This document shows, in pieces, positions 25,202-36,587 of a stretch of DNA of 64,000 nucleotides. The notes under the pieces were generated by a model, which was given only the letters and a program-made list of their open reading frames with translations, was not told the DNA's origin and ran no database searches. Both the position numbers and the translations under genes were made by a program. Positions within the stretch are counted from its first letter, which is position 1. The number at the start of each line of letters is the position of its first letter. The stretch is from Halopseudomonas pachastrellae (GTDB lineage: Bacteria > Pseudomonadota > Gammaproteobacteria > Pseudomonadales > Pseudomonadaceae): NCBI RefSeq assembly GCF_900114765.1, contig NZ_FOUD01000016.1, positions 1 through 64,000 on the forward strand, in the 5' to 3' direction.

Positions 25202-26200
25202 TTAGAGCGCTTCGGTAACCCGCTTGAGCAGTGCGTAGCTGTGCTGGCGTGCGCTCTGGTCAAAAATCGGGCTGTTGACGATCAGCTCGTTGACGCCGGT
25301 GCGTTCCAGCAGTTCGGCCAACTGGCCACCAACCGCCTCAACGTCTCCGATCAGGCTGCCTGACAGCGTCGACATGACCTGGTGGCGTTCATGCGGTTGC
25401 CACAGTGATTCCATGTCGTGGGTCGGCGGCGGCAGTTGGCCCGGCTTACCCCGAATCAGGTTGAGGAAAGCCTGCTGGTGCGAGCTGGCGAGGTAGTGCG
25501 CCTGTTCTCGGTCGTCTGCGAGGTACGCGTTGATGCCCAGCATGGCGTAGGGCGATGGCAGCTGCTCGCTTGGGGTAAAGCTTTCGCGATACAGGCGCAG
25601 GGCGCTGAACAGGTAGTCGGGCGAAAACTGCCCGGCAAAGGCAAAGGGTAAGCCCAGGCGGCCGGCCAGCTGCGCGCTGAAGGTGCTGGAGCCGAGCAGC
25701 CAAATGGGCACATTCAAGCCGGTGCCGGGCACGGCGCTCAGGCGCTGGCCGGGTTTGGCCGGTGCAAACAGCTGGCGCAATTCATCCAGCATCTGAGGAA
25801 AGTCTTCGCCATCGGTGCGGCCGCGGCGTAACGCTTGAGCGGTCATGCCGTCGGTGCCCGGGGCGCGGCCCAGGCCAAGATCAATACGGCCGGGGTAGAG
25901 CGATTCCAGGGTGCCAAACTGCTCGGCAATTTGCAGTGGGGCGTGGTTGGGCAGCATGATGCCGCCCGAGCCGATGCGGATGCGTTCGGTGCCGGCGGCC
26001 AGATAGCCCATGACCACCGAGGTGGCGGCGCTGGCGATGCCCGTCATGTTGTGGTGCTCGGCAACCCAGAAGCGGCGGTAACCCAGCGCTTCCGTGTGCT
26101 GCGCCAATTCCAGCGCGTTGTGCAGCGCGGTGGCGGCGGTGGCGCCTTCGGCAATGGAACAGAGGTCCAGTACGGAGAGAGGAAAATTTGAGCCGGGCAT
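25202..26200 (-). CDS. LLM-class flavin-dependent oxidoreductase
   Basis: A 332-residue luciferase-like monooxygenase of the MsnO8 subgroup. Conserved segments are [52 protein letters not shown] and [16 protein letters not shown]. Such enzymes use reduced flavin; the substrate cannot be read from sequence. It is 91 bp downstream of the 5' end of tRNA-Gly on the same strand and divergent from the cupredoxin operon. Many relatives are annotated without known function. Confidence 0.88.
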
Positions 26201-26354: not shown

Positions 26355-27029
26355 GTGCGCAAGGTTAGAGATGTAGGACGCATAAGCCGTTTCTGGCTGC
26401 GTTTTGGTCTGCTGTTGCTGGCTCAGGCGTTGTTGCTGGAATCGAGCCTTGCGGCGCAAATCCGGCTGACCGATGAGACAGGCGCACCGCTGGCCAATGC
26501 TGTGCTGTTGATTGACGGGGTGCCGCCCGCACCGAACGACAGCTATGTGATGGATCAGGTTGATCGTCAGTTTAGGCCGCATGTACTGGTTGTGCCGGTC
26601 GGAGCGCGGGTGGATTTTCCCAACAGCGATGATGTGCGTCATCACGTCTACTCCTTCTCCGAAGCAAAGTCATTTGAGTTGCGTCTGTTCAATGGTATGG
26701 ATGCGCCTCCGGTGACCTTTGACCAGGCGGGCGCAGTCGTATTGGGCTGCAATATTCACGATGCGATGGTCGGCTACATTCTGGTTACCGGCAGTCCCCG
26801 TTTTGCAGTAAGCGATGCGTCGGGCCGCGTTTCCCTGCCGGACTTGCCTGCAGGCACCTGGCCGGTCTCCTGGTGGCATCCCAGCCGCTTCCAGCAGGCG
26901 CCGGCCTCGCTGGGTGAGCTGGACCTGGGACAGGACGGGTTGGTTGTGAGTTTGCCGCTCACGCCTGTGCCGGAAGAGCCCGCGCAACCCCTGTCGCCGC
27001 TGCAACAGCGCTTCAAGTCGGCGCAGTAG
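26355..27029 (+). CDS. Periplasmic cupredoxin-like protein (methylamine utilization-like)
   Basis: A 224-residue exported protein, start GTG 26355 after a purine-rich GGGGGAG. Signal peptide about residues 12-33. Residues 35-145 form a plastocyanin-like beta domain with candidate type-1 copper ligands: His96 or His97 (SDDVRHHVYSF), Cys132, His135 and Met138 (GCNIHDAMVGYI). The C-terminal part (about 146-195) looks like a second beta domain (SGRVSLPDLPAGTW). It is often annotated as a methylamine utilization protein, but no mau genes are present, so that label is uninformative. First of four tightly spaced genes; 4 bp to the EAL gene. It may sense or deliver copper or electrons in the periplasm. 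Confidence 0.82.
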   Translation: MRKVRDVGRISRFWLRFGLLLLAQALLLESSLAAQIRLTDETGAPLANAVLLIDGVPPAPNDSYVMDQVDRQFRPHVLVVPVGARVDFPNSDDVRHHVYSFSEAKSFELRLFNGMDAPPVTFDQAGAVVLGCNIHDAMVGYILVTGSPRFAVSDASGRVSLPDLPAGTWPVSWWHPSRFQQAPASLGELDLGQDGLVVSLPLTPVPEEPAQPLSPLQQRFKSAQ

Positions 27030-27033
27030 CCCT

Positions 27034-29322
27034 ATGCGCTTGGGATACCTGAGGACGCGGCTGATTCTGACGTCAGTAGGTCTGCTTGCGCTGGTCCTCG
27101 GCGCGGTGTTTGTGGTGGTTTATACCGCAACGGACCTGTCCGCCAACCGGCAGGCACAGAAGCAGTTGCAGGTAGGCAGCAATGTATTCAGCAATCTGCT
27201 TGAGGCGCGTGCGCATGAGTTGGTGGCTGCTACCGAGATATTGGTCGCCGATTTTGGTTTTCGCCAAGCGGTGGCCACCGGCGATCAGCCGACGATTCGT
27301 TCAGCGTTGCTCAACCAGGTCATACGTATTGGTGCTGACCAGGCGATGTTGTTTGACGCCCAGGGGGGGATGCGTATCTTCTCGGTCAGGAATGGCGATT
27401 CCGTCCCAGGCGATGTGCAGGCGCTGCAGCGACTGTCTGACCAGGCCATGATTGCGATTATTGACGATCAGCCCTATCTGCTGGTCGAGGCGGTGGTTAA
27501 GGCGCCGGTGGTGCTCGGTCAGGTTGCGATGGCCTTCAGTCTGGATGAAGAACTCGCGCTCGAACTGCAGAAGCTTACCGGGTTGGAAATCCGGTTTGTC
27601 AGCAGCCACGCCGGTAACGTCATGACCAGCTTCTCAACGCTGACTGACTCGGCGCCTGAAATGCGCGCTGCTGACGACGGGGACATGGTGGAAACCGAAG
27701 GGTACCTGACCACCGTCTTCACGCTGCTTGAACAATCCGAGTATCGGGTTGAGGCACAATTGGCCAGCCCATTGAGTGAGACCTTGGCGAGCTTCGACCT
27801 GCTCAAGCGGGAGCTCTTGATCATTACTCTGGTAGCGTTGCTCGCGTCTTCGCTGCTGGCAGTGCACCTGTCGGGCAGCCTTGCCCGGCCGGTTGCGCAG
27901 TTGGCCGAAGCGGCGACTCGCATCGGTCGAGGTGACTACACCGGTCAGGTCCAGCTTGATCGCAATGATGAGCTGGGGTTGCTGGCTGAGCGGATTGATG
28001 CCATGCGGGTGGGCATCGCCGAGCGTGAAGAGCTGATTGTGCATAACGCTTTACACGATCCGCTGACCGGGTTGCCGAACGTCGGGGTTGTCCGGGAGCA
28101 GCTCAGAAGTGCGATCGCCGGTGGGCAGGGCGGGGTGCTGGCGCAGTGCAACCTGCTGACTGCTGACCTGCTGCTGAAGGCACGTGGGCAAGACTTCATG
28201 GATACGTTGATACGGCAGTCGGTAGCCAGCCTTGAAGGCTTTCTGCCTGCCAATGTGCTGTTGGCCTGGCAACCGGGCAGCGGCTTCTTGTTGCTGCTTA
28301 AGGAGCGCGAGCTGGAAGAGGCCGTGGTCATCATGGACGGCGCACTGGCTCGACTCGCACAGAAAATGCAGGTTCAGGACATCAAGCTCAGCTCGCAGTG
28401 GCTGGCTGGGCTGGTGGCCTGGCCGCAGCACGGACGTGACCCGCAGGAGCTGCTCCGCCAGGCAAGTATTGCGCTGAACGATGCCGCACCCGGGGCAGAA
28501 CGTATCGCCGTTTATCAGGCGCAGAGTGATCAGGCCTATCAGCGGCGTATTCGGTTGGCACGGGATCTGCGCTACGCTGCACAACACCATGAGCTGAGCG
28601 CGGTATTCCAACCCAAGCTTGATCTGGCCTCCGGCGAGGTGCGGCAGGTTGAGGCACTGATGCGCTGGCAGCACAGTCAGCTTGGCATGATCCGGCCTGA
28701 CGAGTTTATTCCGCTTGCCGAGCAGACCGGCAGTATCACTATGCTCACCGAGTGGATGATCGTGGCAGTGCTGTCGCAGCTCCGTGACTGGATTGACCGC
28801 GGCATTCACCTGCAAGTCGCCATGAACCTATCCGCGCGCGACCTGGATGATCCCGAGTTCCCGCGGCGCGTCGAGCGGATGCTGCGTGCCCAGCAGATCA
28901 GTCCGGATTATCTCGCTTTGGAAGTGACCGAAAGTGCAGTCATGCGCGACCCGCAGGCCAGCATTGACAGTCTGCTGGTATTACGCGATTTGGGCATTAG
29001 CCTATCGGTGGATGATTACGGAACCGGCTATTCGTCGCTAGCGACGCTCAAGAGCTTGCCGGTGCAGGATTTGAAAATCGACAAGTCTTTTGTCCTGCAG
29101 CTGGCCGAAAACAGCGATGATGCGGTTATTGTGAAATCGACCATCGAGCTTGCCCATAACATGGGGCTTAGGGTCATCGCCGAGGGAATTGAAAATGCCG
29201 GCTCGCTAGCCTGGCTCAAGGCGCGTCACTGTGATGTGGTACAGGGGTACTTCATAAGCCGTCCGCTGTCTGCCGCTGACCTGGAGCGCTGGATGGATGA
29301 GACGCGCGGAACGTTCGTTTAG
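27034..29322 (+). CDS. Membrane EAL-domain c-di-GMP phosphodiesterase with degenerate GGDEF
   Basis: 762 residues. TM1 about 8-30; extracytoplasmic sensor about 31-258, starting with a dCACHE-like helix (LLEARAHELVAATEILVADF); TM2 about 260-282; HAMP about 283-335. A GGDEF-like domain follows (HDPLTGLPN kept, but the GGDEF site itself is replaced by GSGFLLLL). The EAL domain is about 505-755. EAL residues are intact: VEALMRW, MNLSARDL, LEVTESAV, VDDYGTGYSS, LKIDKSF, AEGIE and VVQGYF. Hydrolysis of c-di-GMP to pGpG is expected, with the GGDEF remnant perhaps regulatory. The sensor faces the same compartment as the copper and haem proteins encoded beside it. Confidence 0.9.
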   Translation: MRLGYLRTRLILTSVGLLALVLGAVFVVVYTATDLSANRQAQKQLQVGSNVFSNLLEARAHELVAATEILVADFGFRQAVATGDQPTIRSALLNQVIRIGADQAMLFDAQGGMRIFSVRNGDSVPGDVQALQRLSDQAMIAIIDDQPYLLVEAVVKAPVVLGQVAMAFSLDEELALELQKLTGLEIRFVSSHAGNVMTSFSTLTDSAPEMRAADDGDMVETEGYLTTVFTLLEQSEYRVEAQLASPLSETLASFDLLKRELLIITLVALLASSLLAVHLSGSLARPVAQLAEAATRIGRGDYTGQVQLDRNDELGLLAERIDAMRVGIAEREELIVHNALHDPLTGLPNVGVVREQLRSAIAGGQGGVLAQCNLLTADLLLKARGQDFMDTLIRQSVASLEGFLPANVLLAWQPGSGFLLLLKERELEEAVVIMDGALARLAQKMQVQDIKLSSQWLAGLVAWPQHGRDPQELLRQASIALNDAAPGAERIAVYQAQSDQAYQRRIRLARDLRYAAQHHELSAVFQPKLDLASGEVRQVEALMRWQHSQLGMIRPDEFIPLAEQTGSITMLTEWMIVAVLSQLRDWIDRGIHLQVAMNLSARDLDDPEFPRRVERMLRAQQISPDYLALEVTESAVMRDPQASIDSLLVLRDLGISLSVDDYGTGYSSLATLKSLPVQDLKIDKSFVLQLAENSDDAVIVKSTIELAHNMGLRVIAEGIENAGSLAWLKARHCDVVQGYFISRPLSAADLERWMDETRGTFV

Positions 29323-29332
29323 ATGGGCTGCC

Positions 29333-30193
29333 ATGAAAAAAACTGTGTTGTGTGGAATGGGCTTGCTGTGCCTGGCGGGAACGGTCTGCGCTGATACCGG
29401 TGGCCGCCTGCTGGCGACCGGAGGGGTGACCAACATCGAAGGCTCAGCCGGCGGCGGCATTGTGCCGTGGGCGGTGCTGTCCGGCTACGGTGCTCGGGGT
29501 GAGTGGGGCGGTGATGCTTTTGCCACTCGCGTCGACACGGGAGACTATCGGCTCGACGCCTTCGGTGCGTCGCTGGCATTCAATAACCGGGTGGAGCTTT
29601 CGGTGGCTCGGCAGCGACTGGATATGGATGCGCTGACCAAGGCGGCCGGCCTGCCGCATAAGAGTCTCAATCAGGATATCTTAGGCGTGAAGCTGCGGTT
29701 GTTCGGGGACCTGGTGTACGACCGCTTGCCGCAGGTCGCGGTGGGTGCGCAGTACAAACGTCAGACTAACTTCCTGATCCCGTCGCTGGTTGGTGCCCGG
29801 CGGGATTCGGATACTGATTATTATCTTGCCGGCTCCCGCCTGTTCCTTGGCGCAGTGGGCGGCTATAACCTGCTAGTGAATGGCACACTGCGCTATTCGC
29901 GGGCCAATGAGACCGGGCTGTTGGGTTTTGGTGGCGACCGGCGCGACAGTCGGACACTGCTCAAGGAGGGGAGTGTGGCGCTGCTGCTCAACCCTCGCTG
30001 GGTGGTGGGGGTTGAGTATCGGGAGAAGCCAGACAATCTATCCTTTGCTGGCGAAAGCGATTGGCAGGATGTGTTTGTCGGCTATTTCCCGAGTAAGCGT
30101 CTGGCTCTGGCTGCTGCCTGGGCTGAGTTGGGCGAGATTGCCACGCTGGAGGGTCAGCGAGGCATCTTCCTTTCCATGCAGCTGAGTTATTGA
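29333..30193 (+). CDS. DUF3034 family outer-membrane-like protein
   Basis: 286 residues with signal peptide (MKKTVLCGMGLLCLAGTVCA). The mature part starts DTGGRLLATGGVTNIEGSAG and is rich in alternating hydrophobic/polar strands. It ends in an aromatic residue (...GIFLSMQLSY), as in outer-membrane beta-barrels. DUF3034 proteins have no assigned function. ATG 29333 is 10 bp after the EAL stop and the next gene starts 7 bp after this stop, so it is part of the four-gene operon. A pore or anchor for the system is a reasonable but unproven role. Confidence 0.8.
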   Translation: MKKTVLCGMGLLCLAGTVCADTGGRLLATGGVTNIEGSAGGGIVPWAVLSGYGARGEWGGDAFATRVDTGDYRLDAFGASLAFNNRVELSVARQRLDMDALTKAAGLPHKSLNQDILGVKLRLFGDLVYDRLPQVAVGAQYKRQTNFLIPSLVGARRDSDTDYYLAGSRLFLGAVGGYNLLVNGTLRYSRANETGLLGFGGDRRDSRTLLKEGSVALLLNPRWVVGVEYREKPDNLSFAGESDWQDVFVGYFPSKRLALAAAWAELGEIATLEGQRGIFLSMQLSY

Positions 30194-30200
30194 GGTTCCC

Positions 30201-30641
30201 ATGCGTAGACAATTACGTGCGACGGCCGGTGTTGCGCTTGTTCTGTTCGGCCTCGTCGGGTGTGCTATCAGCCCGGCGCCGGAGAACGATAGCCTGTACC
30301 AGGCGATGGGAGGCCAGGCTGGCATCAATCGCGTGGTGGAAGGACTGCTTTACCAGATCGCGGATGACGAGCGTATTGTTCATCACTTCGCTGACACCGA
30401 CATAGTGCGATTGCAGGAAAAACTGCAGGAGCAGTTCTGTGTCGAGGCGGGAGGCCCTTGCGTGTATTCCGGCGACAGCATGGCCGACGTGCATGCCGGA
30501 TTTGAGCTAACCGAAGCGGATTTCAATGCGCTGGTTGAAGACCTGATTGCGGCAATGGAGGCCGAGCAGTTGCCGGTGACAGTTCAGAATCGCCTGCTGC
30601 AGCGTCTGGCGCCGATGCGCGCAGATATCATTTACCGCTAG
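30201..30641 (+). CDS. Group 1 truncated haemoglobin, lipoprotein form
   Basis: 146 residues. A lipobox (VLFGLVGCAIS, Cys21) precedes the globin fold, so it is expected to be lipid-anchored in the envelope, unusual for a truncated haemoglobin. The globin starts SLYQAMGGQAGINRVVEGLL (the typical YexlGG region). The proximal haem ligand is His98 (MADVHAGFELTEADF). The E-helix region is RLQEKLQEQFCVEAGGPCVY, with two cysteines flanking the loop. The likely ligand is O2 or NO. Last gene of the operon; its stop overlaps the end of the convergent EAL gene by 4 nt. Confidence 0.85.
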   Translation: MRRQLRATAGVALVLFGLVGCAISPAPENDSLYQAMGGQAGINRVVEGLLYQIADDERIVHHFADTDIVRLQEKLQEQFCVEAGGPCVYSGDSMADVHAGFELTEADFNALVEDLIAAMEAEQLPVTVQNRLLQRLAPMRADIIYR

Positions 30642-32959
30642 CTGCTGGCACTCGGCTTGTCGGCGTCAAGCACCCGGATCTCGGTGATCAGGCTGGCCGA
30701 AGGCATGCCGATGGCGGCGCCCTGGGCATGCTGGATGCCCAGGGCACGCACCTGATTCAACACCGCCGGGTTGTGTACGAACTCGGCCACGGTCTGCATG
30801 CTCAGCTCCTGCGCAAATTGCACAATGCCGCGGCACAGGGTCAGTGCGGTGGGGTTGCTGTCGAGCTGGCGGATCAGGCTGCCGTCGATCTTGATCAGGT
30901 CTACATCCAGGCGCAGCAGGTGCTCAAAGTTGGAGTAACCGGTGCCAAAGTCATCAATGGCAATACGGCAGCCCTGCGCCTTGGCGCGGTCAATGAACTG
31001 CCGTACCGCGCTGTAGTTCTCGATCCCTTCTGATTCCAGAATCTCAAAGATGACCTGCTTGCCCATGCCGCGTGAGGCGATGGAGTCGAGGATGTGGTCG
31101 CTCAGCTCCGGGTCCAGCAGGTCTTCGCAGGAGAGGTTGAGCGAAAAGCTCCACGGCTGCCCTTCAAAGCGCTCCAGCGCCAGATCAACCATGCGGCGGG
31201 TGAGGGTGCGGTAGAGGCGAATCTTTTTGGCCAGATCCAGAAAATGAACCGGGCTGACGGGTTCGCCCTGCTCATCGAGCATGCGCACCAGGCACTCGTA
31301 CTTGTCGATCTGGCCGGTGGCCAGATTAAGGATGGGTTGGTAGAAGGCGACGATGCGTCCGCTATCCAAAGCGGCGCGCAGGCGGTTGGCGCCGATCAGG
31401 TTTTGCTCGTAGCCCTCACGCACACGTTGGCTGGCATCGTAGAAGACAAAGCTCTCCAGATTCAGGCGGGCCAGCTCCAGGGCGATGTTGGCGCCGTGCA
31501 GCAATTGCTCGCCGCTCAGGTCGGCGGCGTTGCCCTGCTGGCTGCAGGCCACGCCCAGGCTGGCGTTGAGTGTCAGGGGCTGATCCTCCCAGCGCACCTG
31601 CAGCTCGCCGATAAACGCCAGCAGGTCCTCCAGCGCCGGCGTCAACTGCTCGGCGTTATGGTGCCCGGGCAACCAGATGGCGAGCTCGTCGGCGGGCATG
31701 CGGTACAGCCGGGCGCCCCGCCAGTCGGGGTTAGTGTCCAGCTTTTCTTGTAGTGCGTGGGCCAGGCTGATGATCACGTGGTCACCGCAGCTGTGGCCGT
31801 AAAAATCGTTAATTTCCTTGAAGGAGTCGATATTTAGCAGGATCAGGCTGGCGGTGTGGCTTTTCTTCAGGTCGGCCAGCAGACGCTCGCGGTTGGGCAG
31901 GCCGGTCAGGCTGTCGGTGTACAGGTTCTGCAGCTGGCGCAGGGTGCCGGCCACCAGATACAGCACCAGACCCGATATCAGCAGCATGATGACGCCGGCA
32001 ATCAGCTGAATGCGCAGGTTGCTCTCGCGCATGGGGGCCAATACCGCGTCTATCTCGGCCTGCGGCACGCCGATGCCAAAGATCATCCCGGCCTGGCTGC
32101 GGGCAAAGAAGAGTCGGTAATCGTCGCCGGCCAGGGTTTGCTGCAGTTGCTGCAGCGGCGCCGTGAGCTGACGCGCATTGACTATCTGTGGCAGCGTTTG
32201 CGGCTCCAGCTGGTTGCCCAGCTGGAGGTCAATTACGGCGTTGATCAGCGGCTGGGCCTGGGCCTGATCGGTTGCGGCAGACAGGCTGGAGAGGTTGCGG
32301 TTGGCGTGGTCCAGCAGAAACGAGAAGGTACCGGGCGTGACTTCTACCCGGCTGATGGTGCGAATGATGTCGTCGGCCAGCCAGTCGGTGACGGCCAGAC
32401 CGATCGGCGTGCCTGCGTTGTTGGTGATCAGGGTAGCGTGGCTGATTACGACACTGCTGATGCTGTCTTTGTAGTAGGCCGCGGTCCAGTTCTGGCTCGG
32501 GTCGCTGTCGGCGGCGGCGTTGGCGGCGCGCAGGCGCTGGAACCACTCGCGCAGCTGCGCTTGTTCTGCACTCGGCACGTCGGTTACGGCAAGGCGCTGT
32601 TCCTGCCGGTAGGCATAGCGGGCGGGCAGGGCGGCGTTGGCGTACCAGAGGGTGCTGCCGTGGGTGTCGGGGAAGTCGCGCAGGGCCCGGCGCAGGCTGT
32701 CGTCCAGCTCCTCGCCCGGGCGCGGCATCAGGCTGCCGGCGCGGGCCAGGCCTGCGGTGCTTTGCGCCATCAGGCGGTGATGGGCGTTGATGCGGTCCAG
32801 GTTGGCGTAGAAGGTGTCGGCAATCTGGCGTTGGCGCAGCTGCGCCATGGCTTTTTCGGCGAACTCCAGGTTGGCGCTTGCCATCAGCCAACTGACCACC
32901 AGCACCAGCCCGACCATCAGGCTGAGCAGGATCATGATCGCGCGTTTGACTGGCAGCAT
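30638..32959 (-). CDS. GGDEF/EAL membrane protein, probable c-di-GMP phosphodiesterase
   Basis: 773 residues. TM1 about 8-27, periplasmic dCACHE-type sensor about 30-310, TM2 about 316-338, GGDEF-like about 345-505, EAL about 520-765. The diguanylate cyclase motif is lost (MPADEL in place of GGDEF). The phosphodiesterase motif is ECL (KYECLVRM); NLSCEDL, ILESEG, IDDFGTGYSN, LIKIDGS and the AQG glutamine are kept. The EGxE position reads EFVH, so its last glutamate is lost. Activity is likely but may be reduced. Convergent with the truncated haemoglobin; the Sel1 lipoprotein gene lies just upstream on the same strand. Confidence 0.85.
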   Translation of the reverse strand: MLPVKRAIMILLSLMVGLVLVVSWLMASANLEFAEKAMAQLRQRQIADTFYANLDRINAHHRLMAQSTAGLARAGSLMPRPGEELDDSLRRALRDFPDTHGSTLWYANAALPARYAYRQEQRLAVTDVPSAEQAQLREWFQRLRAANAAADSDPSQNWTAAYYKDSISSVVISHATLITNNAGTPIGLAVTDWLADDIIRTISRVEVTPGTFSFLLDHANRNLSSLSAATDQAQAQPLINAVIDLQLGNQLEPQTLPQIVNARQLTAPLQQLQQTLAGDDYRLFFARSQAGMIFGIGVPQAEIDAVLAPMRESNLRIQLIAGVIMLLISGLVLYLVAGTLRQLQNLYTDSLTGLPNRERLLADLKKSHTASLILLNIDSFKEINDFYGHSCGDHVIISLAHALQEKLDTNPDWRGARLYRMPADELAIWLPGHHNAEQLTPALEDLLAFIGELQVRWEDQPLTLNASLGVACSQQGNAADLSGEQLLHGANIALELARLNLESFVFYDASQRVREGYEQNLIGANRLRAALDSGRIVAFYQPILNLATGQIDKYECLVRMLDEQGEPVSPVHFLDLAKKIRLYRTLTRRMVDLALERFEGQPWSFSLNLSCEDLLDPELSDHILDSIASRGMGKQVIFEILESEGIENYSAVRQFIDRAKAQGCRIAIDDFGTGYSNFEHLLRLDVDLIKIDGSLIRQLDSNPTALTLCRGIVQFAQELSMQTVAEFVHNPAVLNQVRALGIQHAQGAAIGMPSASLITEIRVLDADKPSASS

Positions 32960-34460: not shown

Positions 34461-36587
34461 ATGGCTGTTGATCGCGCACAACTGATGGGCAACATGCGGA
34501 CCAATCTGGCCGGGCTGCGTCACGGCAGCCTGGGGATTCCCGTGCTGCTGCTGGTGATGCTCGGCATGATGATGCTGCCGATTCCGCCATTTTTGCTGGA
34601 CGTGTTCTTTACCTTCAACATCGCGCTGTCGCTGGTGGTGCTGCTGGTCTGTGCCTACGCACTGCGGCCGCTGGACTTTGCGGTATTCCCGACCATTCTG
34701 CTGATCTCCACGTTGCTGCGTCTGGCGCTGAACGTGGCCTCCACCCGCGTGGTGCTGCTGTACGGTCACGAGGGTGGTGACGCGGCCGGTAAGGTGATTC
34801 AGGCCTTTGGTGAGGTGGTGATCGGCGGTAACTACGTTGTCGGTCTGGTGGTGTTCGCCATCCTGATGATCATCAACTTTGTGGTGGTCACCAAGGGCGC
34901 GGGGCGCATTTCCGAGGTCAGCGCGCGCTTCACCCTGGATGCCATGCCCGGCAAGCAGATGGCTATTGATGCTGATTTGAACTCGGGCCTGATCGATCAG
35001 GAGCAGGCCAAGACCCGTCGCCGGGAAGTGGCGCAGGAAGCCGAGTTCTACGGCTCCATGGACGGTGCCAGCAAATTTGTCCGCGGCGACGCTATTGCCG
35101 GCCTGCTGATTCTGTTTATCAACGTACTTGGCGGCCTGGCCATTGGTATGGCGCAGCACGGTCTGCCGTTTGCCGAGGCGGGCCGCATCTATGTGCTGCT
35201 GACTATTGGTGACGGCTTGGTGGCGCAGATTCCGTCGCTGCTGCTGTCGACTGCGGCGGCCATCATGGTGACCCGTGTTTCCACTTCCGAGGACATGGGC
35301 GCGCAGGTTCAGCGGCAGATGTTCGCCTCGCCCAAGGCGCTGGCAGTTGCAGCGGCGATTCTGATCGTCATGGGCCTGATCCCCGGCATGCCGCACTTTT
35401 CGTTCCTGAGCCTGGGTGCTATCGCTGCCGGGGGCGCCTGGTTTATCGCCAAGCGCCAGAAGGAAAAGGCCGAAGAAGAAGTCGAGGCCGAGCGCAAGCG
35501 GGCGCAAGTACCGGCCGTGCAGGCGCCGGAAACCCGCGAGCTGGGCTGGGACGACGTTACCCCGGTGGATATGGTCGGGCTGGAGGTAGGCTACCGCCTG
35601 ATCCCGCTGGTGGACCGTAATCAGGGTGGGCAGCTACTGGCGCGTATCAAGGGCGTGCGCAAAAAACTGTCGCAGGACCTCGGCTTTCTGATGCCGTCGG
35701 TACATATCCGCGACAACCTGGATCTGGCGCCCAACGCCTATCGCCTGACGCTGATGGGTGTCAGCGTGGCCGAGGCCGAGATCTACCCGGACCGCGAACT
35801 GGCGATCAACCCCGGTCAGGTGTTTGGCGATATCAAGGGTATTGCCGGCAAGGACCCGGCCTTTGGCCTGGACGCGGTCTGGATCGAGGCATCGCAGAAG
35901 GATCAGGCCCAGTCGCTGGGTTACACCGTGGTAGACGCCAGTACCGTGGTAGCGACCCACATCAACCAGATTCTGCACAAGCACGCGCATGAGCTTATTG
36001 GCCATGAGGAGGTGCAGCAGTTGATGCAGGTGCTGGCCAAGGCCTCGCCCAAGCTGGCCGAGGAGCTGGTGCCGGGCCTGATTTCGGTCTCCAACCTACT
36101 CAAGGTGCTGCAGGGTCTGCTGCAGGAGCAGGTGCCGGTGCGGGACATTCGTACCATCGCCGAGGCCATCGCCAACAACTCGGGCAAGAGTCAAGATACT
36201 GGCGCGCTGATCGGCGCGGTGCGGGTCGCGCTGTCGCGCTCAATCGTGCAAAGCATTGTGGGGCTTGACTCCGAGCTGCCTGTGATCACCTTGGAGCCAA
36301 GGTTGGAACAGATGTTGCTACAGAGTCTGCAGAAGGCCGGGCAAGGCGCTGACGACGGAATGTTGTTGGAGCCGGGCATGGCCGAGAAGCTGCAACGCTC
36401 GCTGGCCGACGCGGTACAACGGCAGGAGGTGCAGGGCAAGCCGGCGATTCTGCTGGTGGCCGGGCCGATTCGCATGATGATGGCCAAGTTTGTCCGCTAT
36501 GCGGCGCCCGGAGCCCACGTACTGTCCTACCAGGAAATACCGGACAGCAAGCAGGTCACCATCATTGCGACGGTTGGCCAGAACTAG
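34461..36587 (+). CDS. flhA: Flagellar type III export protein FlhA
   Basis: 708 residues. This inner-membrane component forms the nonameric export gate. It has eight membrane helices in about the first 320 residues, with the conserved FHIPEP-family block MVTRVSTSEDMGAQV and LDAMPGKQMAIDADLNSGLI. A large cytoplasmic domain follows (about 345-700: GYRLIPLVDRNQGG, GKDPAFGLDAVWI, ASTVVATHINQILHKHAHEL). First gene of the flhA-flhF-fleN-fliA unit. No flhB or fliR precedes it; instead a Sel1 lipoprotein gene lies on the other strand. Confidence 0.97.
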   Translation: MAVDRAQLMGNMRTNLAGLRHGSLGIPVLLLVMLGMMMLPIPPFLLDVFFTFNIALSLVVLLVCAYALRPLDFAVFPTILLISTLLRLALNVASTRVVLLYGHEGGDAAGKVIQAFGEVVIGGNYVVGLVVFAILMIINFVVVTKGAGRISEVSARFTLDAMPGKQMAIDADLNSGLIDQEQAKTRRREVAQEAEFYGSMDGASKFVRGDAIAGLLILFINVLGGLAIGMAQHGLPFAEAGRIYVLLTIGDGLVAQIPSLLLSTAAAIMVTRVSTSEDMGAQVQRQMFASPKALAVAAAILIVMGLIPGMPHFSFLSLGAIAAGGAWFIAKRQKEKAEEEVEAERKRAQVPAVQAPETRELGWDDVTPVDMVGLEVGYRLIPLVDRNQGGQLLARIKGVRKKLSQDLGFLMPSVHIRDNLDLAPNAYRLTLMGVSVAEAEIYPDRELAINPGQVFGDIKGIAGKDPAFGLDAVWIEASQKDQAQSLGYTVVDASTVVATHINQILHKHAHELIGHEEVQQLMQVLAKASPKLAEELVPGLISVSNLLKVLQGLLQEQVPVRDIRTIAEAIANNSGKSQDTGALIGAVRVALSRSIVQSIVGLDSELPVITLEPRLEQMLLQSLQKAGQGADDGMLLEPGMAEKLQRSLADAVQRQEVQGKPAILLVAGPIRMMMAKFVRYAAPGAHVLSYQEIPDSKQVTIIATVGQN

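Follow-up and report, generated by a model that had tools for sequence, protein, structure and literature searches.

What joins a copper protein, a membrane receptor with an EAL domain, a DUF3034 protein and a truncated haemoglobin carrying a lipobox is the question raised by four consecutive genes at positions 26,355 to 30,641 of contig NZ_FOUD01000016.1 of Halopseudomonas pachastrellae (assembly GCF_900114765.1). The window considered here is the whole analysed stretch of 64,000 nucleotides (positions 1 to 64,000 of this contig, forward strand); the host genome measures 3.93 Mb, and the closest named matches of the window DUF3034 protein are mostly from Halopseudomonas. All four genes lie in tandem on the plus strand, separated by gaps of 4, 10 and 7 bp, and these coordinates confirm the operon-like layout described in an earlier interpretation made from the letters alone (the sequence-only reading). 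The single module of that reading is refined by the present analysis: the gene set consists of two separable pairs, DUF3034-globin and cupredoxin-receptor, joined in three arrangements, and the cupredoxin accompanies its receptor type even where the EAL output is missing. The module is real, conserved and apparently undescribed. With a probability of roughly 0.5, we read it as an envelope module that lowers cyclic di-GMP (c-di-GMP) and is gated by the cupredoxin, with the barrel and the globin as a second, outer-membrane pair. Its features are listed below.

26355..27029, plus strand: cupredoxin gene, with an export signal, a type-1 copper domain and a C-terminal CarboxypepD_reg-like stretch
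26640..26768, plus strand: copper ligands His96, Cys132, His135 and Met138 with a C-x2-H-x2-M loop, conserved in homologues
27034..29322, plus strand: membrane receptor dCache_3-HAMP-GGDEF(degenerate)-EAL, a predicted c-di-GMP phosphodiesterase (Pfam and conserved residues)
27148..27648, plus strand: dCache_3 extracytoplasmic sensor domain of the receptor (Pfam)
28561..29265, plus strand: EAL domain of the receptor (Pfam), with conserved E540, N598, E630, D660, D661, K681, E717 and Q737
29333..30193, plus strand: DUF3034 protein (PF11231), with an export signal, a Gly-rich N-terminal block, a modelled 12-strand barrel and Tyr as last residue
30201..30641, plus strand: group 1 truncated haemoglobin with a lipobox (PF01152), with Cys21, His98, Cys80/Cys87 and an apolar distal pocket

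Linkage of the four genes

The DUF3034 family was sought in 58 relatives, 18 of which are positive, and in an even sample of 398 Pseudomonadota genomes, 39 of which are positive. Two collections of neighbourhoods were compared: set A, composed of 54 fetched neighbourhoods and the window (55 loci), and set B, composed of 80 named loci out of 586 confirmed in a separate scan, with at least six contigs common to both. A globin gene directly follows DUF3034 in every locus with a DUF3034 match, i.e., in 54/54 cases in set A and 80/80 in set B. All four genes are found together in 43 of the 55 loci of set A and 77 of the 80 loci of set B. The co-occurrence count proposed by the sequence-only reading, for which genes found mostly apart would have been adverse, thus turns out in its favour, with the window order present in 36/55 loci of set A (three of them with an extra EAL gene upstream) and 77/80 loci of set B. 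The remaining complete loci of set A comprise six in which cupredoxin-EAL and DUF3034-globin are divergent, and one with the order DUF3034-globin-cupredoxin-EAL. The same alternatives appear in public plasmid annotation, where Caballeronia shows DUF3034, globin, cupredoxin and EAL, and Novosphingobium the divergent form. Named carriers of DUF3034 include Pseudomonas, Stutzerimonas, Xanthomonas, Caballeronia and Novosphingobium; the family is found in 0/14 well-known control genomes, and may have been overlooked for this reason.

The 12 incomplete loci of set A include two at contig ends (L058 and L063), and the exceptions in set B are two at contig ends (L129 and L157) and L111, where the 2.2 kb upstream contain no receptor. 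A cupredoxin-EAL pair is present elsewhere in six of the ten genomes whose incomplete locus is uncut (G042, G268, G280, G301, G316 and G444). As for the others, G181 has an EAL-DUF3034-globin locus with its cupredoxin elsewhere, beside another protein family, and G197 has a second cupredoxin without a receptor and two dCache_3 matches in the genome; in G076 and G134, no cupredoxin-receptor pair elsewhere is found among the matches listed in the cupredoxin and dCache_3 scans. No consistent substitute for the EAL gene appears among the 20 neighbours scanned in loci without one.

Within the genus, the 37 genomes contain DUF3034 in 16 cases, the module-type globin in 18 (counted at E < 1e-40, weaker globin matches being left out) and the cupredoxin in 17. 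The co-occurrence p values, computed over these 37 genomes with kinship ignored, are 1.2e-8 for DUF3034-globin, 1.1e-5 for DUF3034-cupredoxin and 2e-4 for cupredoxin-globin. Over 121 pooled loci, the similarity of the four proteins to those of the window co-varies (Spearman 0.83-0.87), as co-inheritance predicts and as the species tree alone would also give.

The cupredoxin and its receptor

The first gene encodes a protein with an export signal, read from the sequence, at about residues 1-34 and a type-1 copper domain at about residues 49-147; residues 145-175 are CarboxypepD_reg-like at 22 bits against a Pfam cut-off of 32, and no Pfam family exceeds its cut-off. The type-1 ligand set noted in the sequence-only reading withstands alignment: His96, Cys132, His135 and Met138 are invariant in 47/47 aligned homologues, and the same ligands recur in 33/33 further cupredoxins, mostly outside DUF3034 loci. 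Where that reading gave His96/97 for the first ligand, His96 is the likely one, because His97 is kept in just 38/47 homologues. The protein therefore shows the His-Cys-His-Met ligands on a cupredoxin fold that define a type-1 cupredoxin, and copper binding is predicted. The fold, the ligand set and the C-x2-H-x2-M loop are common to amicyanin, pseudoazurin and plastocyanin; unlike these, the window protein has an extra C-terminal CarboxypepD_reg-like part, and its usual neighbour is a receptor and not an oxidoreductase.

The Pfam domains of the receptor span residues 39-205 (dCache_3), 279-325 (HAMP), 339-484 (a weak GGDEF) and 510-744 (EAL). Hydrophobic stretches at about residues 10-30 and 259-281 flank the dCache_3 domain, in agreement with the membrane EAL protein with an extracytoplasmic sensor recognized in the sequence-only reading. 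In the receptor alignment, from which the non-orthologous rows L060, L063 and L070 were removed beforehand, the eight EAL residues listed above, which have catalytic roles in EAL domains, are invariant in 45/45 homologues. The GGDEF motif is gone from the window receptor, leaving it without the signature of an active diguanylate cyclase, and 35/45 homologues are devoid of any xG(D/E)(D/E)F motif, while nine carry GGDEF and one VGDEF. Because the EAL set is intact and the xGDEF motif mostly lost, the receptor should lower c-di-GMP; its output is expected, from these residues, to be that of a phosphodiesterase, and a few relatives might be bifunctional. An EAL receptor paralogue stands directly upstream of the cupredoxin in 3/55 loci of set A and 10/80 of set B (e.g., the Pseudomonas loci L064, L065, L105 and L107), and in Pseudomonas lactucae (L112) the EAL receptor is broken up into three frames, which suggests decay or a sequencing error.

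Covalent haem in Cache domains is reported in PMC12889525. In the window-type dCache_3, no Cys or His is found among the residues conserved in at least 85% of homologues; any cofactor would therefore come from a partner. Cupredoxin matches at E < 1e-30 number 59 in the 398 genomes, and 46 of them adjoin a receptor of the type encoded by gene 2: 43 are full-length EAL receptors (30 in DUF3034-globin loci and 13 elsewhere), two are dCache_3-HAMP adenylate/guanylate cyclases (G121 and G336) and one is a dCache_3-HAMP-Ser/Thr kinase (G209). A third dCache_3 cyclase stands beside the cupredoxin in G044, outside this sample. The sensor motif DFxF(R/K)xA...D..T..SA is common to the EAL and cyclase receptors and is weaker in the kinase. 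Taking into account that the cupredoxin stays with one sensor type while the outputs change, it is best explained as the input partner of the sensor. Receptors with cyclase or kinase outputs are seen beside the cupredoxin at loci L239, L216, L221 and L233.

The DUF3034 barrel and the lipobox globin

The DUF3034 protein matches PF11231 at 372 bits against a cut-off of 25, and an export signal can be read from its sequence. The structural model contains 12 strands forming a barrel, and the C-terminal residue is Tyr; the aromatic end and barrel-like character pointed out by the sequence-only reading are thus upheld, and the protein is, on the basis of this model, probably an outer-membrane barrel. 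A conserved Gly-rich block at about residues 24-50 precedes it, with low model confidence there. Compared with FapF and the 12-strand channels KdgM, NanC and COG4313, identity is 8-14%, FapF being compared by fold alone; invariant charges and an N-terminal block of its own distinguish DUF3034 from all of these. A further copy of DUF3034, which is broken, lies at G134:C3:72638-73313, in a genome that has DUF3034-globin and no cupredoxin match.

The globin matches PF01152 (Bac_globin) at 55 bits, and its lipobox, read from the sequence as LVGC, ends at Cys21, consistent with the truncated haemoglobin with a lipobox first proposed. A Cys occupies this position in 41/55 aligned homologues, and a lipobox-like motif occurs in 98/135 pooled globin loci, a count obtained with a crude pattern on overlapping sets and representing either an underestimate or a true mix. 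The long stop-to-stop frames at L076, L087, L093 and L095, apparent globin fusions, are taken as frame artefacts. The proximal His98 and the Cys80/Cys87 pair are invariant in 55/55 homologues, and a Cys80-Cys87 disulfide may be proposed. In an ungapped alignment to HbN, the distal positions are Leu50 (B10), Leu71 (E7) and Leu75 (E11), and hydrophobic residues occupy B10 in 54/55, E7 in 55/55 and E11 in 55/55 homologues. The TyrB10 and GlnE11 of an HbN-type nitric oxide (NO) dioxygenase are accordingly absent, with Leu50 and Leu75 in their place.

With a His at F8 and hydrophobic B10, E7 and E11, the window globin shows the TrHbN-2 pattern as given in PMC11904497. Low O2 affinity is expected for this pattern, according to PMC11904497 and PMC4720485. 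The apolar distal pocket argues against both tight O2 binding and HbN-type NO dioxygenation. SbHbN of S. benthica, a TrHbN-2 described in PMC11904497, shares the proximal His, the hydrophobic B10/E7/E11 and a Cys at E16, which corresponds to Cys80 of the window globin; relative to SbHbN as described there, the window globin has in addition a lipobox, a second invariant Cys seven residues on and a genetic tie to DUF3034.

Proposed mechanism and evidence against it

In the reading that we prefer, the dCache_3-HAMP receptor would receive its input from the periplasmic cupredoxin, acting as a subunit that can detach. The redox state or the copper occupancy of this protein would, on contact, alter the receptor, whose intact EAL domain would then degrade c-di-GMP. 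The outer-membrane DUF3034 barrel and the lipid-anchored globin would form a second, nearly inseparable pair in mutual contact. At the outer membrane, this pair would handle a haem ligand or a small redox-active molecule, and it may supply, remove or report the cue read by the cupredoxin-receptor pair. A bolder version, which we regard as speculative and on balance unlikely, would make the copper protein the detachable input of a whole receptor class with EAL, cyclase and kinase outputs, and the barrel-globin pair the first stage of a relay in which surface chemistry passes from haem to copper, to the receptor and finally to c-di-GMP.

Several observations weigh against the cupredoxin-gated module. 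Thirteen of the 59 cupredoxins have no adjoining gene-2-type receptor, one of them (G288) being cut by a contig end. Five (G072, G181, G395, G403 and G430) stand beside one family of proteins of about 400 residues, one member of which matches a porin family weakly, below the Pfam cut-off; the cupredoxin can therefore also serve something else. In two others, the neighbour is a histidine kinase gene (G109, and G078, where a MauG-like peroxidase gene intervenes), and five have neither partner type (G197 twice, G213, G076 and G301), three of these in DUF3034-globin loci. Conversely, dCache_3 is commoner than the cupredoxin, being present in 153/398 genomes, and many of its carriers in this sample have no strong cupredoxin match among the matches listed, so that the domain does not require the cupredoxin. 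An exclusive tie of dCache_3 to the cupredoxin, as 15/17 over-cut-off matches adjoining it in 14 cupredoxin-holding genomes would indicate, is rejected in view of these carriers. DUF3034-globin is found without any cupredoxin match in G134. Finally, between the same two border genes, only cupredoxin-EAL is present in G002 and G017, and only the globin in G018 and G028; at this genus site the module therefore behaves as two pairs, with the globin able to outlast the barrel.

The promoter regions, in which none of the regulators considered has a clear site, add to these objections. In 123 regions upstream of the cupredoxin, compared with shuffles, the CueR, Fur, NsrR and SoxR patterns are not above the shuffles. 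With one or two mismatches the Anr/Dnr pattern equals the shuffles, and with three it slightly exceeds them (71 vs 48-60); the LexA pattern is slightly above at one mismatch (17 vs 3-16). A sigma54-like site reaches 11/123 at one mismatch against 1-4 in the shuffles, but was discarded as a candidate on account of its scattered positions on both strands.

The proteins of about 400 residues beside the cupredoxin were seen at L211, L218, L220, L223, L226 and L241, with 29-61% mutual identity and a weak Porin_4 match only in L226. At L220 and L223, the cupredoxin and this protein are preceded by genes for a TonB receptor and a PKHD-type hydroxylase, and at L226 they lie beside an RND efflux system. 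The order at L245 is cupredoxin, MauG/CCP-type di-haem peroxidase and HAMP-PAS histidine kinase.

Alternative explanations

The competing explanation that survives best, which we nevertheless find doubtful, is that of two separate functions: the barrel-globin pair would handle O2, peroxide or haem ligands, the cupredoxin-receptor pair would be an independent copper or redox sensor, and the two would share regulation and niche only. The 13 cupredoxin-EAL pairs located away from DUF3034-globin in the 398 genomes, the solitary DUF3034-globin of G134 and the genus site where cupredoxin-EAL or the globin may persist alone all agree with it. On the other hand, the recurrence of three joined arrangements suggests more than shared regulation, and the retention of a cupredoxin-EAL pair elsewhere in six of ten genomes with incomplete loci also speaks against it.

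Improbable, in our view, is an export or display device, in which the barrel would carry the globin, or some other factor, to the surface and the linkage would reflect c-di-GMP control of surface life. FapF, a barrel that exports amyloid subunits, provides the precedent.

A still poorer case can be made for periplasmic defence against NO or nitrosative stress, in which the cupredoxin would feed a globin acting as NO dioxygenase, with the EAL protein dispersing the biofilm on NO. The globin belongs to group 1 and is related to HbN, and the cupredoxin domain is like that of nitrite reductase; against this, the HbN residues TyrB10 and GlnE11 are replaced by hydrophobic ones in nearly all homologues. 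Moreover, DUF3034 is found in 0/11 genus genomes with NirS-type D1 proteins (counted at E < 1e-100) and in 0/15 with NosZ over the Pfam cut-off, with p values of 6e-4 and 6e-6 over the 37 genomes, kinship being ignored. G042, of another family, has DUF3034, NirS-type and NosZ together and is a counter-example to this exclusion; in G002, NosZ occurs together with the cupredoxin-EAL pair alone. NO from the organism's own denitrification is consequently unsupported as a cue, DUF3034 and nirS/nosZ being mutually exclusive in the genus, with G042, outside it, as a counter-example.

The sequence-only reading had inferred a module lowering c-di-GMP in response to O2, NO or copper redox state. Its predicted output agrees with the invariant EAL residues and with the loss of xGDEF in most homologues; the proposed signal is unsupported, given the apolar pocket and the lack of overlap with NirS/NosZ in the genus, and nothing in the analysis shows O2, NO or copper to be the signal. 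Copper status, peroxide, sulfide and the general periplasmic redox state are candidate cues.

An electron-transfer set for methylamine oxidation, suggested by the amicyanin-like fold and ligands of the cupredoxin and by its public database name elsewhere, 'methylamine utilization protein', can be dismissed for the window genome, in which the methylamine dehydrogenase light chain (PF02975) is absent, as it is from the 16 DUF3034-positive genus members, the only carrier among the 37 genus genomes being G034, without cupredoxin and DUF3034; a link elsewhere is possible, since G039 and G044, outside the genus, carry methylamine dehydrogenase together with this cupredoxin family.

Neighbouring genes

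The locus is bordered in the window by two genes on the opposite strand.

25202..26200, minus strand: luciferase-like monooxygenase gene (Pfam)
30638..32959, minus strand: convergent GGDEF-EAL gene (Pfam), overlapping the end of the globin gene by 4 bp

Both genes also border the site within the genus. The flanking GGDEF-EAL gene lies outside the module elsewhere; in several genus genomes it occurs as a tandem pair. The plus-strand gene at 34461-36587, some 3.8 kb past the module on its downstream side, presumably corresponds to a relative of the flagellar flhA.

Comparison with known systems

In the YfiBNR (TpbB) and HmsCDE systems, an outer-membrane lipoprotein, a periplasmic protein and an inner-membrane receptor control c-di-GMP. 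The layout of the window module resembles theirs; it differs in having an EAL output instead of a cyclase, a cupredoxin, a globin as the lipoprotein and an added DUF3034 barrel, and no YfiR or OmpA domain is found by Pfam in the four proteins. In NspS-MbaA, a membrane GGDEF/EAL receptor has the periplasmic solute-binding protein NspS as its input subunit, which is the relationship proposed here for the cupredoxin and its receptor; in contrast to NspS, the putative input protein of the window is a copper protein and not a solute-binding one, and its receptor type occurs with alternative outputs.

Redox control is represented by a row on HmsC/HmsD in the table of a review of c-di-GMP stimuli (PMC8846402), and the word copper is absent from the main text of this review. 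The globin-coupled sensors and DosP/YddV covered there (PMC8846402) likewise tie a haem protein to c-di-GMP turnover, with the difference that, in the table entries considered, the haem domain lies inside the enzyme, whereas the window globin is a separate envelope protein. Among the matches listed in the literature searches, no title or abstract on the four-gene set was found, and DUF3034 itself is mentioned in two papers; data on the EAL gene alone may exist under other names.

If the preferred reading is true, it would provide a function for DUF3034, a reason for the existence of a lipidated globin clade and a metalloprotein-gated input to c-di-GMP signalling.

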